Assembly (NCBI RefSeq): GCF_000759025.1
Contig: NZ_JPOS01000029.1
Coordinates: 1-64,000 of the forward strand
Reading direction: 5' to 3'
DNA length: 64,000 nt
Source: Phaeodactylibacter xiamenensis
Lineage (GTDB): Bacteria > Bacteroidota > Bacteroidia > Chitinophagales > Saprospiraceae
In this document: positions 21,211-25,252 of the stretch, in pieces
Layout of the letters: each line of letters begins with the position of its first letter
How positions within the stretch are numbered: position 1 is the first letter of the stretch
Notes under the pieces: model-generated
Databases searched by the model: none
What the model was told of the DNA's origin: nothing
What the model saw: the letters and a program-made list of their open reading frames with translations, nothing else
Position numbers and translations under genes: made by a program

Positions 21211-21285
21211 GTCTTTTCCCGCCGGGTGCACTCGCCGTTCGACGTAGTTTTACAACGAAGTCGATTCCTTCACCCGGCGTGCTTA
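21211..21285. repeat. Dispersed palindromic repeat, copy 1
   Basis: Arms CGCCGGGTG (21220-21228) and CACCCGGCG (21271-21279) enclose about 42 bases containing a second, weaker inverted repeat (CGAC...GTCG). The same sequence with small changes recurs at 23221-23247 and 23266-23326. It lies just after the lipoprotein gene and before the first Rpn-like gene. Confidence 0.8.
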
Positions 21286-21396
21286 AAAACGAAACAGTTC
21301 ATTCCTGTACGATCGGGCTGATTGAATTTATTTGTTTAAATTATTTTGGACCCTATTACAAGGTTTTGTATCTTAAGGGCGCTTAATCTCTGTACC

Positions 21397-22473
21397 ATGC
21401 CCTCGAGACCCAAAATACATCAACCCGATGACCGCTTCTTCCGCCACGCTATGAGCAAGCCGGAGGTAGCAAAGCGGTATATTGAGCACTTCTATCCGGA
21501 CATTGCCCGCATCACCGACCTTGGGAGCCTGAAGCTGGAAAGCAGCCTTAGCATTCAGCCCAACCTAAGAGAATTCCAAGCCGATGTCATCTACCGCTGC
21601 CGCCTCCTACAAGACGGGGAGAAGCATCTGTACTTTTGCCTGCTGCTTGAGCACAAATCACAGCCCGATAAATACGTGTCCGTACAGGTCGGGCTATACA
21701 TCATGGAGCTGATGCTGCGCTCCGTAAAAGAAGCCGGGCGGGAACTGGAGCTGGTGCTCCCCATCATATGCTACAACGGGAAAGAAAAATGGCAGCCCCT
21801 GACGCTCGCAGAGCTTTTTGCCGGCCATCCGCAGCTCGGCCTGCTGCAACCCTATATCCCGAATTTCAGTTTTGTATTTCAGGACGTCTCCCAGCTCAGC
21901 ACGGAGGAGCTGCTGCAGCTTGACCTGAGCTTTTTCAGGAGCGCCATCATGGCGTTATCCTTACGGCATCAGCCCTACTTGATTGTTAAATATCTTAGGC
22001 TTATTTTTGAAGGGGCAGACGGCAAGGCCAGTATCAGCGCACTGACCCATTACATCCTCGGGGTGGCAGAGCGCTCCGAACAAGAATTCAAAGCAATTAT
22101 TGAAAATACGGACCTCGATATAATACCAGATGTCATGAGCACACTAGAGCAAATCCTGATCCGCGGCCGCAAAGAAGGCATGGAAAAGGGCATGGAAAAG
22201 GGTATGGAAAAAGGCAAACAAAAGGAGCGCATCTTCCACCTTTTGAAGACAGCACTCAAATTTCCGGAAATGTCGGCCGTTGACCTCGCCGACTTCACCG
22301 GGCTGCCTCAGGAAACAGTGCAGGATTTTATCGATATCACTGCAAAAGGCGACAAAGGCAAGCTCCTCAAATATGTGCAGGAAGAACTACTTGCCGATAT
22401 CCCGCTCAATTCAGAAGAAATGGAGAAGCTGCAGGAGCTGGTGGAAAAGCTGCTGGCAGGCACAGACAGGTAA
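21397..22473 (+). CDS. Rpn-family PD-(D/E)XK nuclease / transposase-like protein
   Basis: Member of the Rpn/Transposase_31 group: DNA nucleases related to transposases, reported in E. coli to promote RecA-independent recombination and in some cases phage defence. 358 residues from ATG 21397 (MPSRPKIHQPDDRFF), since the upstream part of the frame has no family match. Nuclease core: DRFFRHAMS, then an Asp in FQADVIYRC (about 57-65) and the E-x-K motif in LLLEHKSQPDKY, followed by QVGLYIMEL. The middle is helical; residues about 258-275 are a low-complexity run of KGME units, and a helical tail ends the protein. A second, disrupted copy lies 1.5 kb downstream. Palindromic repeats flank the pair. 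Confidence 0.85.
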   Translation: MPSRPKIHQPDDRFFRHAMSKPEVAKRYIEHFYPDIARITDLGSLKLESSLSIQPNLREFQADVIYRCRLLQDGEKHLYFCLLLEHKSQPDKYVSVQVGLYIMELMLRSVKEAGRELELVLPIICYNGKEKWQPLTLAELFAGHPQLGLLQPYIPNFSFVFQDVSQLSTEELLQLDLSFFRSAIMALSLRHQPYLIVKYLRLIFEGADGKASISALTHYILGVAERSEQEFKAIIENTDLDIIPDVMSTLEQILIRGRKEGMEKGMEKGMEKGKQKERIFHLLKTALKFPEMSAVDLADFTGLPQETVQDFIDITAKGDKGKLLKYVQEELLADIPLNSEEMEKLQELVEKLLAGTDR

Positions 22474-22504
22474 AGCCAAATTCTGATATTTCAGTCCCCC
22501 TATG

Positions 22505-22650
22505 GTAGCCCGACTTCGTAGAACCTGTCTACCCGGCGCAGGCAGGTAGAGCCGCATCCTAATCTCTCAGCCCCCCTATGACAGCCCGACTTCGTAGAAG
22601 TCACATCTTGATCTTTCAGGCATCCAAGGCAGCTCGACTTCGTAGAGTCG
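22505..22650 (+). repeat. Three spaced copies of an AGCCCGACTTCGTAGAA word
   Basis: Copies at 22507-22523, 22583-22599 and, with two changes, 22631-22647. Each is preceded by a similar CTATGG/CTATGAC/CCAAGG segment and an upstream TCTCAG/TTTCAG word, so the unit is longer than the core. Spacing is irregular (76 and 48 bases). CGACTTCGT also occurs, as its complement, in the dispersed palindromes nearby. Not coding. Confidence 0.7.
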
Positions 22651-22732
22651 CATGTAGAACCCAGCCAGAACCAATGCTCCACCTACCCCCACCCAAACCC
22701 CAAAAAAACAACAATGTTTTCACGCCGCAACC

Positions 22733-22761
22733 TTGACATTACCACGGCCAAGTCGTATATT
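22733..22761 (+). promoter_or_regulatory. Promoter-like sequence ahead of the structured region
   Basis: TTGACA (22733-22738), exactly 17 bases, then TATATT (22756-22761). It fits the general sigma70 consensus and, read as TTG-N20-TATATT, partly fits the Bacteroidota form. It has no gene directly behind it but precedes the chain of hairpins from 22842. Confidence 0.5.
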
Positions 22762-22769
22762 ACCAATCC

Positions 22770-23255
22770 ATTGCACGAATCACTGCGCGCAGCAACATAA
22801 AAACCGGCGCTCCCTGTGTAACCGCCACACTTATACCGACGATTAAGTGGTTTGCCGAGTCAAACCCACTTAATGCTTGCCCGTGTCTCATCGCCTTTAG
22901 GCTTTGACCACCTTAAAGGCAGGAGGGTCGGCATATACGCCTTGAAGCGGTATGCCTTGGAATAGCATACCACTTCGTCATGCGTATACTTGAACAAAAA
23001 ACATAACCGCCCTGCTAAAGCCTTGAGCTATAGCAGTACTATTGGTACTGGCATTAAACAGATATGCCTGGGACAGCCGGTAGCTGAGTCCCTGCCCGTG
23101 CTATGCCCCGCTGGGCGCTTCCGGAAGCGCTACTTGCTACAGCGCCGTGACACGGGGTGCCCGTAGGGCGGGGGGGGATCCAAGTCAATTTCTATTTTTT
23201 AACACATAAAAACCTTTTCTCGCCGGGTGCACTACCTTCACCCGGCGTGCTTTTA
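22770..23255 (+). ncRNA. Candidate structured non-coding RNA (strand and ends inferred)
   Basis: No credible gene occupies 22474-23382. From 22842 to 23156 successive inverted repeats cover most of the sequence: A 22842-22874 (ATTAAGTGG/CCACTTAAT), B 22893-22920 (GCCTTTA/TAAAGGC), C 22934-22988 (outer TATACGC/GCGTATA, inner GGTATGC/GCATACC), D 23012-23036 (CTGCTA/TAGCAG), a small one at 23035-23049 (AGTAC/GTACT), E 23070-23092 (GGGAC/GTCCC) and F 23095-23156 (CCCGTG/CACGGG around GCGCTTCCGGAAGCGC). Several loops share a GCCTTGA-like word while the stems differ. A promoter-like sequence precedes it, and a hairpin with a T-rich tail (23221-23260) follows and could terminate it. It does not show the signature blocks of RNase P RNA, tmRNA or a group II intron domain V that I looked for. 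Confidence 0.5.
23221..23247. repeat. Dispersed palindromic repeat, copy 2 (short form)
   Basis: Perfect arms CGCCGGGTG (23221-23229) and CACCCGGCG (23239-23247) with a 9-base loop. The inner 40-base segment of the other copies is missing. Followed by TGCTTTTAAATCTTTT, so it could also act as a terminator. Confidence 0.8.
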
Positions 23256-23265
23256 AATCTTTTCT

Positions 23266-23326
23266 CGTCAGGTGCACTCGCCGCTCGACATAGTCTAACA
23301 ACGAAGTCGATGTCCTTCACCCGGCG
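23266..23326. repeat. Dispersed palindromic repeat, copy 3
   Basis: Arms CGTCAGGTG (23266-23274, two changes) and CACCCGGCG (23318-23326). The inner part with CTCGACATAGTCTAACAACG matches copy 1 apart from a few bases. Confidence 0.75.
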
Positions 23327-23382
23327 TACTAAAAAAATGAAACAGGCAATTCCTATTTATTCACACATAAAACCTTTCACTT

Positions 23383-23934
23383 ATGAAAAACAAACTCCTA
23401 CTCCTCACCTGGCTGCTCGCCGTGCCCCTGCTGTGGGTCGGGTGCAACAAGCCACTCTTTAAGACCGATGAAGCCTCCATCGCACAGCCCGATGAGCTGC
23501 CGCCCATCACCACGACCGGAGAGGGCACCTTCGCCTGCAAAATCAATGGGGTGAACTGGCAGCGCTGTGGGGGCGGGTTCCTTCAGAGTAGTATACTTGG
23601 AGAGTGGCACCCGGTTTATAAGATTTTTTAGATTTTTGGGATGAGACGAAGCTGTGAGGGCTTTGATGATTCGGTTTATATCGCTGCGTATGTAGATAGT
23701 GTAGGTAGATATAGCTTGCACGATGCATTCTATAACGATCGAAATCATCCTTGTCAAGAGTCAAGTGACCCTTCACGTCTGTTGGAAGGTGCTGACAACT
23801 GGGTAGAGATCCTCAATCTGGGCACCGAAGAATTTATCGTCTCTGGCACCTTTCAGTGCACAGTGGTCGATGATAACTGTGGCGACACGCTCTTTATCAC
23901 CGATGGCCGTTTCGACTTCGATTGGGCTAACTAA
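23383..23934 (+). pseudogene. Lipoprotein gene with an in-frame stop
   Basis: Signal peptide and lipobox (MKNKLLLLTWLL ... LWVGCN) begin an 82-codon frame that ends in TAG at 23629-23631; the same frame then continues without interruption to 23934 (SVYIAAYVDSVGRYSL ... VSGTFQCTVVDD ... LFITDGRFDFDWAN). Joined, it would be a 183-residue lipoprotein of a type common in Bacteroidota, with GTFACKINGVNW near the start and a terminal FITDGRFD segment. The stop sits in an imperfect tandem 9-base duplication (ATTTTTTAG ATTTTTGGG), so replication slippage is a likely cause. The product is unknown; a second start at the ATG at 23641 would lack a signal peptide. Confidence 0.7.
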
Positions 23935-24010
23935 TTGAATTCATTTGTTTAATTTATTTTGGTTTTAATACAGTGTTATGTATTTTTAGGGTGTGCTTAA
24001 CCTCTGTATC

Positions 24011-25252
24011 ATGCCCCAAAACATAAATGTCCATCAACCGGATGACCGCTTCTTCAAGTCGGCTATGAGCGACCCGGAGGTGGTCAAAGCTTATCTTCAG
24101 CATTTCTATCCTAAAATTGCAACTATTGCAGATCTTGCAAGCTGGAAGCTGGAAAACAGTGTCAGTCTGCGCCCCAGCCTGAAGCGGTTCGAAGCGGACA
24201 TCATTTACCGCTGCCGGTTTCAGGGAGAGGCGGATGACCACTTCTATTTCTGTTTGCTATTTGAGCACAAGTCCAAGCCCGATAAGTACGTTGCGGTGCA
24301 GGTTGGGCTGTACATCATGGAACTCTTATCGAGCATGGTGAAAAAACAGAGCAGGGAACTGGAGCCTGTACTGCCACTCATCTTTTACAATGGCAAGGAG
24401 AAGTGGGTGCCGCAAACCTTGGGCCAACTGTTCAAAGAGCACCCGCACCATGCTGTTTTGGAACCCTACATCCCCGACTTTCGTTTCCTTTTTCAGGACG
24501 CCACACGATTAAGCACGGAGGAGCTGCTAGAGCTTGTTGGGGTTTTGCTTTTGGAGCGAACGCAGCCAAATTTCGTTCTGATCGAGGCGCGATAAGGGAG
24601 AATAGCCATAGCTATGTGACCGAAGAGCAACGAAGAGCAGGGCGAAATTTGGCAAGAGCAGCCCAAAGGGTAAAATCCTAACAAGCTCTTTAAGCTTGAC
24701 CTGAGCTACTTCCGCAGCGTACTGATGACGATGGCTTTCCGGCACCGGCAGCACTTGATATTCAAGTACCTTCAGCTTATCTTTGAAGGGACGGACGGGA
24801 AAGAAAAAGTCAGCGCAGTGACGACCTACATCCTGGGGGTGGCAGAGCGTTCGGAAGAAGAGTTCCTAAAGCAAATCCAAGACACAAAATTCACGATAAA
24901 ACCAGAAGTCATGAGTACGTTGGAGCAAATTTTGGAAAGAGGTCGAAAAGAAGGGCTGGAGAAAGGCATGGAGAAGGGCATAGAAAAAGGCATGGACAGG
25001 GGGGCATACAAAAATAGTATTTTCAACCTGCTCAAAACCGCTGTGCGTTTTCCTCAACTAACTACCGAAGAGCTGTCTGATTTTACTGAAGTGGATTTAG
25101 AAACCGTCAACAAGTTACTGTCTGTCAAAGCACAGGGCGATGCAGCTGCGCTAAGCAATTACGTCCGCGAAGACCTGCTTGCCGATACCCCACTGAAGGC
25201 CGAAGATGAAGAAAAGCTGGATCAGCTGGTCGGGCAATTGATGGACATGTAG
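24011..25252 (+). pseudogene. Rpn-family nuclease gene broken by a small palindromic insertion
   Basis: Paralogue of the gene at 21397: MPQNINVHQPDDRFFKSAMS at the start, FEADIIYRC with the catalytic Asp and LLFEHKSKPDKY with the E-x-K motif. The frame is open to a TAA at 24593-24595, which lies inside foreign sequence; after it the same frame resumes at about 24692 (KLDLSYFRS) and runs to the stop at 25250-25252, with its own KGME-type low-complexity run (about 24955-25005). Alignment to the intact copy places the insertion between its LLQL and DLSFF residues. The 5' fragment still encodes the whole catalytic core, so a short active nuclease cannot be excluded. Confidence 0.85.
24531..24697. 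mobile_element. MITE-like palindromic insertion, net 162 bp
   Basis: Compared with the intact paralogue, 162 extra bases lie between codons at 24535 and 24698. The two ends are inverted copies: GAGCTTGTTGGGGTTTTGC on the left against GAGCTTGTTAGGATTTTAC on the complementary right end, and the similarity extends inward through GCCAAATTTCG, giving imperfect arms of about 55 bases. AGCTT is present at both boundaries (24531-24535 and 24693-24697), so the exact ends and target duplication are ambiguous. It encodes no protein. Confidence 0.75.

Follow-up and report, generated by a model that had tools for sequence, protein, structure and literature searches.

A hairpin chain in a lipoprotein gene leader of Phaeodactylibacter xiamenensis is best explained by a modular MITE-like repeat

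RUP elements of Streptococcus pneumoniae and Correia elements of Neisseria both insert at TA. A resident IS630 element is presumed to mobilise RUP (PMC3049150), and further bacterial MITEs are listed in PMC10969869. BOX elements of S. pneumoniae and S. suis are 67-637 bp long, with 125 copies given for one genome (PMC3049150). BrickBuilt of Porphyromonas gingivalis, a MITE of the Bacteroidota, has between its leader and its tail a tandem array whose copy number varies (PMC4596501). Among the papers listed by literature searches, none was seen to describe the repeat reported here, which does not imply its absence from print.

A stretch of 64 kb from P. xiamenensis (the window), part of a draft genome of 7.87 Mb in 164 contigs, was analysed. 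In a preliminary description, positions 22842-23156 had been proposed as a new structured RNA of about 315 nt on the plus strand, with promoter-like boxes ahead and a hairpin plus T-rich tail behind. The chain of hairpins is very probably a non-autonomous mobile DNA repeat (MITE) that was inserted at a TA in the 5' leader of a duplicated lipoprotein gene. The proposed RNA is two things side by side, namely a mobile repeat and a lipoprotein leader. The features of the locus are as follows:

21346-22473, plus strand: Transposase_31 (Rpn-type) gene
22700-22831, plus strand: conserved lipoprotein leader, upstream part
22733-22761, plus strand: promoter-like TTGACA-N17-TATATT, which belongs to the leader family and is present or nearly so in other leaders
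22832-22988, plus strand: MITE-like repeat, 157 bp long when the TA at each end (22832-22833 and 22987-22988) is counted, recognised by its ends, copies and empty sites
22842-22874, plus strand: left hairpin of the repeat, with arms 22842-22853 and 22863-22874
22875-22926, plus strand: slot-1 hairpin module of 52 nt, missing at the same site in the congener G002
22944-22976, plus strand: right hairpin of the repeat
22989-23216, plus strand: conserved lipoprotein leader, downstream part; in paralogues its T-rich stretch lies in front of the start codon
23383-23934, plus strand: remains of a lipoprotein gene, split into two open pieces (23383-23631 and 23641-23934), with open paralogues elsewhere
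23993-25252, plus strand: second Transposase_31 (Rpn-type) gene, split into two open pieces (23993-24595 and 24725-25252), the first of which was examined with Pfam

The position between two Transposase_31/Rpn-type genes, as given in the preliminary description, was borne out, with the second gene in two open pieces. The promoter-like boxes were also found as described, TTGACA at 22733-22738 being separated by 17 bases from TATATT at 22756-22761. The interval between the leader and the lipoprotein start (23201-23382) is bounded by a 34-bp repeat and is 84.5% alike, over 97 bases, to positions 21212-21306 in front of the upstream Transposase_31 gene.

A genome search with the stretch yielded at least 44 full or partial matches, for which 40 of 101 candidates were scored. 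The middle part alone, whole or partial, accounts for 32 of these 44. Nearly all of 22702-23216 is found at 94-96% at one place each on contigs C3 and C12. At four places (contigs C38, C37, C3 and C12) the outer parts are adjacent without the middle.

The ends of the middle part are well defined. The left end TATACYGACGATTAAGTGGTTTGCC occurs 62 times in the own genome and the right end, the reverse complement of TATACGCAATACGAAGTGGTTTGC, 48 times (up to 3 mismatches each), and backwards control sequences gave no match for either end. For 43 of the 62 left ends, a facing right end is located 52-403 bp away, in 13 cases at 105 bp; there is one neighbour in the same orientation and one that diverges, and five of the 48 right ends are unpaired. 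For the remaining 19 left ends, a right end is in most cases present but more diverged. With a looser right-end rule, 58 of the 61 readable copies possess both ends, one of the 62 having been left out for an incomplete locus. Complete copies start with TATAC in 55 of 58 cases and finish with GTATA in 52. The terminal inverted repeats are imperfect; by eye, the two 24-base ends agree at 18 of 24 positions. The repeat is therefore short, non-coding, present in many copies and delimited by defined ends with terminal inverted repeats, which is what characterizes a MITE.

Empty sites were found for the leader itself. Filled leaders read CCACACT-TATACC...GCGTATA-CTTGAAC, while empty leaders hold a single TA, namely CCACACTTACTTGAAC in two paralogues, CCACACGTACTTGAAC in two other paralogues and CTACACTTAATTGAAC in P. 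luteus. A Transposase_31-like gene start is likewise interrupted (ATGCCCCAAAATCTAAA-TATAC...); among three other such starts caught, two have TA and one has TG. At a further candidate empty site, C39:91527 compared with the relative G004, the 2-nt gap reads CA, not TA. The sequences at filled and empty sites fit a TA target-site duplication and, formally, also a cut beside TA without duplication, which would look alike at these sites. The target preference over 42 distinct sites is weak and symmetric, with T before the insertion in 21 of 42 and A after it in 20 of 42. It resembles that of TA-targeting DDE transposases.

The preliminary description had listed a mobile-element relic among its options, and with a left end at 62 places and empty paralogous leaders this option turned out to be right for the structured part. 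Its other options, an independent ncRNA or an RNA partner of the nuclease, were not supported, as the structured part is missing from four paralogous leaders and from P. luteus. It is scarcely conceivable that the copies represent an old segmental duplication and not transposition: the three leaders of the own genome that contain the repeat do share one common site, at which it spread with the gene unit, but 42 of the 43 paired copies have distinct left flanks, the ends lie at TA and empty sites are known.

The outer parts of the stretch (22700-22831 and 22989-23216) belong to a lipoprotein gene family, as its promoter region and leader. In all eight other leaders read, the conserved block continues into ATGAAAAACAAA and the T-rich stretch directly precedes the lipoprotein ATG, which argues against the reading of the hairpin and T-rich tail as a terminator. 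Behind these eight leaders, seven lipoprotein frames extend to a natural stop and one (C12, L032:3793) has an early stop. Two of the three repeat-carrying leaders of the own genome, on C3 (196 aa) and C12 (183 aa), precede open genes, so that the repeat is tolerated there. Any RNA copy of it in the leader would be a passenger of the lipoprotein mRNA.

Between copies, and also across species, the 225 bases upstream of the start codon are 84-98% alike (C38 and C37: 100%), and the lipoprotein coding bodies are 49-98% alike, several of them having a nucleotide identity of about 50%. Compared in steps of 50 bp, divergent pairs such as C12 and P. luteus are 88-100% alike from -350 to +50 and 32-54% alike thereafter; two other pairs with P. 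luteus reach 62-98% over the same front. For one between-species pair the values are 97.8% for the leader and 54.6% for the coding region. The reverse pattern is seen for C38 and G002 (leader 87.0%, coding region 95.2%). Two divergent bodies have 38% of their residues in common, and both match NCBIfam Riean_0653. Across L031-L034, L167 and L168 (C3, C12, C38 and C37 of the own genome, P. luteus and G002), promoter, leader and signal peptide are nearly constant, and in several pairs the mature lipoprotein diverges right after the lipobox cysteine. The constant front may have been homogenised by recombination, with recombination-driven diversification behind it, or may be a constrained, regulatory leader. 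This near-constant block before divergent lipoprotein bodies is a separate lead.

To characterize the folding of the stretch, z scores against dinucleotide shuffles were calculated for both strands. The proposed 315 nt (22842-23156) fold better than all 100 shuffles used for this region, with z scores of -3.55 on the plus strand and -5.23 on the minus strand. The claim of a region filled with stems is thereby upheld in part: the excess is confined to the repeat (22832-22988; -4.56 plus, -5.62 minus), and the downstream leader (22989-23156; -1.11 plus, -0.94 minus) is near chance, as is the upstream leader (22700-22831; 0.23 and 0.36). The better fold of the minus strand is at odds with the plus strand as the RNA strand. 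The repeat-free leader of C38 gave -1.33 on the plus strand and -2.17 on the minus strand, and the leader may thus have a mild fold excess on the minus strand. A search of the 64-kb window against Rfam gave no match at gathering score. With E values up to 10, five sub-threshold matches were obtained within 22450-23400, the best being a microRNA model with 24.8 bits against a cut-off of 62.5. The loop word GCCTTG, which had been described as repeated, occurs three times in 22700-23260, compared with 21 occurrences on one strand of the window and 17 on the other; of the three, the inserted repeat contains two and the leader one.

Compensatory changes, which had been expected where structure rather than sequence is kept, are rare. 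Among eight of the nine leaders (C37 was left out, being identical to the leader of C38), three of 52 pairs were changed on both sides and several other pairs were broken in one or two sequences, these copies being too alike for a strong test. Among 57 distinct left hairpins, five of 741 pair cells had two-sided changes and 106 were broken, in an ungapped count that scores copies with an extra loop hairpin as broken; the most striking matching of hairpin arms resembles a single template-switch event. With few two-sided and many broken stem pairs, RNA-level selection on the stems is not clearly indicated. Excess folding together with compensatory changes, as in a conserved structured RNA, was found neither for 22989-23156 nor for the left hairpin. 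A structured RNA over the whole 315 nt was rejected, since one half, which holds the structure, is a mobile insert and the other folds near chance. A new structured ncRNA or riboswitch that spans 22842-23156 on the plus strand is accordingly most improbable. It could draw on the promoter-like boxes upstream, on the slight minus-strand excess of the C38 leader and on the constancy of the leader before divergent bodies, by which the leader may be a cis-regulatory region; against it stand the mobile half that four paralogues and P. luteus lack, the near-chance fold and broken pairs of the other half, the Rfam result and the better-folding minus strand. The striking hairpin chain is explained without a new RNA class.

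The interior of the repeat is modular. The 52-bp form consists of one hairpin and the 105-bp form of the left and right hairpins. In longer forms, hairpin modules are located in fixed slots: one of two main types follows the left hairpin, the right hairpin holds zero to five copies of a 31-nt unit in its loop, and further on there are zero to five copies of another unit, about 28 nt long, with CCAGACGATGAATGTCTGG. These counts tolerate mismatches and are approximate; none of the five scanned motifs is found in 19 of 58 copies. The hairpin modules also occur outside this MITE, among other places within two repeat families whose ends are unlike (20 stretches were read). Among the hairpin variants found outside, the CCCGAC..GTCGGG pairing is kept by a two-sided change and CCTGAC..GTCTGG has a mismatch. 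The hairpin GACGATRAATGTC is found in two dispersed families (L223, L225-L227 and L229-L233) whose ends resemble AGACTATGTTTGGAGC and AGACTGTGTTGGGATTTC, and one variant of it there has a compensated outer pair.

Orthologous sites were identified by matching both flanks of the copies in the own genome to a limited set of loci from relatives. With the leader counted once, twelve sites carry the repeat in both genomes, ten in comparison with G002 and two with G004. Six of them are equal in length and six, all in comparison with G002, differ by whole modules, with lengths in the own genome and G002 of 157 and 105 bp (leader), 136 and 105 bp (C38:6759), 219 and 168 bp (C2), 168 and 157 bp (C39:371354), 194 and 217 bp (C90:185255, where the left-flank match is only 33 bases) and 172 and 167 bp (C101). 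As the own genome is a draft and G002, on which all six differences depend, is a MAG of 61% completeness, assembly error is possible for the longer copies and their module arrays. If reads spanned them, the leader and C38:6759 are the safest cases. At the leader site, bases private to the window copy are kept, by eye, within about 8-10 bases of both junctions of the 52-nt module. The copies at C34:189640 do not differ in length, yet in G004 the left hairpin has become a perfect palindrome, a mark expected of template switching during replication (PMC8794818). Matched stem changes in repeat-derived hairpins, as in this palindrome, need not mean RNA-level selection.

Modules would change in place through slippage within tandem arrays and through recombination among copies, and template switching would perfect the hairpin arms. 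At L200, two repeat copies lie 644 bp apart in G002, and C10:49901-50099 in the own genome (G000) holds one copy with both outer 10-base flanks, as expected of a deletion through recombination between copies. It is a tentative and rather unlikely proposal that the hairpin modules are cassettes exchanged precisely in place between MITE copies that stay fixed, and even across unrelated families, by hairpin-directed copying (e.g. template switching) and not by ordinary transposition. If in-place exchange did occur, the genus would be a natural system for watching palindromic DNA being copied between sites.

Left ends of the repeat were found in all six genomes of the genus searched (62, 23, 21, 6, 1 and 1). 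With a full copy as query, eight of 197 genomes matched, the own genome included; six are those of the genus and two match only 24 bases of a module. A full copy is also present in L204 (JAGGDU010000006.1), labelled as a Trichodesmium erythraeum MAG; this contig may come from an associated bacterium and have been mis-binned. At about 16 places by eye (loci L259, L260, L262-L265, L267-L271, L273, L275 and L277), there is a sister repeat that has its first 11 bases (TATACCGACGA) in common with the MITE but differs in body and right end. One of its copies lies inside an ORF at L259:3600-4154. In L259:688-6127, ORFs for a Y1 transposase and a reverse transcriptase are found together with three ORFs presumed to be FGE-sulfatase-like, an arrangement that resembles a diversity-generating retroelement locus.

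With regard to mobilisation, a TA-targeting DDE transposase (IS630/mariner-like), acting in trans, would have inserted the repeat at TA. In the own genome, the search for IS630 (DDE_3) gave 10 matches, whose readable ends form three groups that are all CTAG and none TATAC; two of the three groups end in CTAGTGG and the third in CTAGTGCC, and one copy at a contig edge gave no ends. Three more IS630 copies were found in the genus, those of G001 and G005 ending in CTAG and one being a fragment without readable ends. G005 is taken as P. luteus KCTC 42180, since its repeat copy and flank coincide with those of NZ_VOOR01000004.1. For an IS630/mariner derivation, the TA target was found, and ends shared with the IS630 copies of the genome and genus were not (two partial copies are unreadable). 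None of the readable IS630 copies was accepted as mobiliser, every readable end in the own genome and genus being of the CTAG type. A resident autonomous element with matching ends, which not every MITE needs to have, was not found among the DDE_3 and Y1 families searched.

Alternatively, the repeat could have been moved as single-stranded DNA by a Y1 transposase (IS200/IS605, RAYT-like) that recognises the end hairpins. Both ends are hairpins, a cut beside TA without duplication would give the same picture, and the own genome has three Y1 genes, one of which (C25:1882-2424) lies between two outward-facing copies of the sister repeat, whose first 11 bases are those of the MITE. The distances of these copies to the Y1 ORF, however, are about 0.2 and 1.3 kb, with another ORF in between for the second copy; this locus is the only one of the three with a loose end match, and at the other two no end-like or module-like match was found in the 3.3 kb scanned. 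In addition, IS200/IS605 targets are one-sided, unlike the weak and symmetric preference of the repeat. Movement by a Y1 transposase is therefore considered unlikely.

Pneumococcal BOX elements and BrickBuilt of Porphyromonas are the closest precedents of the repeat. Its plan of end modules with zero to n internal modules is BOX-like, and BOX elements likewise combine fixed end modules and variable internal modules with terminal inverted repeats, target duplication and strong folding (PMC3049150). In S. suis, boxB modules are found between two different pairs of end modules (PMC3049150); here, one hairpin module is found inside other repeat families. The present repeat differs from BOX in belonging to another phylum and in having several slots with different module types. 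It is filed as a new family of a known kind, MITEs, and not as BOX, since the two were compared by building plan alone. BrickBuilt has 23-nt bricks, GAGACC-like ends and target duplications that vary in length and sequence (PMC4596501), whereas the repeat has hairpin units of 31 and about 28 nt, TATAC ends and a TA target. With RUP (PMC3049150) and Correia (PMC10969869), it has in common a length of about 100-200 bp, many copies and stable folding. RUP ends resemble those of IS630-Spn1 (PMC3049150), whereas the readable IS630 ends of the genus do not match the repeat. REP/RAYT systems (PMC3733652) are similar in being dispersed palindromes, and the hairpin modules described here also occur outside the MITE. 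The tag at the hairpin foot of REP/RAYT systems is GTAG or CGTC; by eye, the ends of the repeat show no GTAG, a CGTC is located near the foot of the left hairpin, and one of the three Y1 genes lies between copies of the sister repeat. The repeat differs from REP/RAYT systems in its paired ends and TA target.
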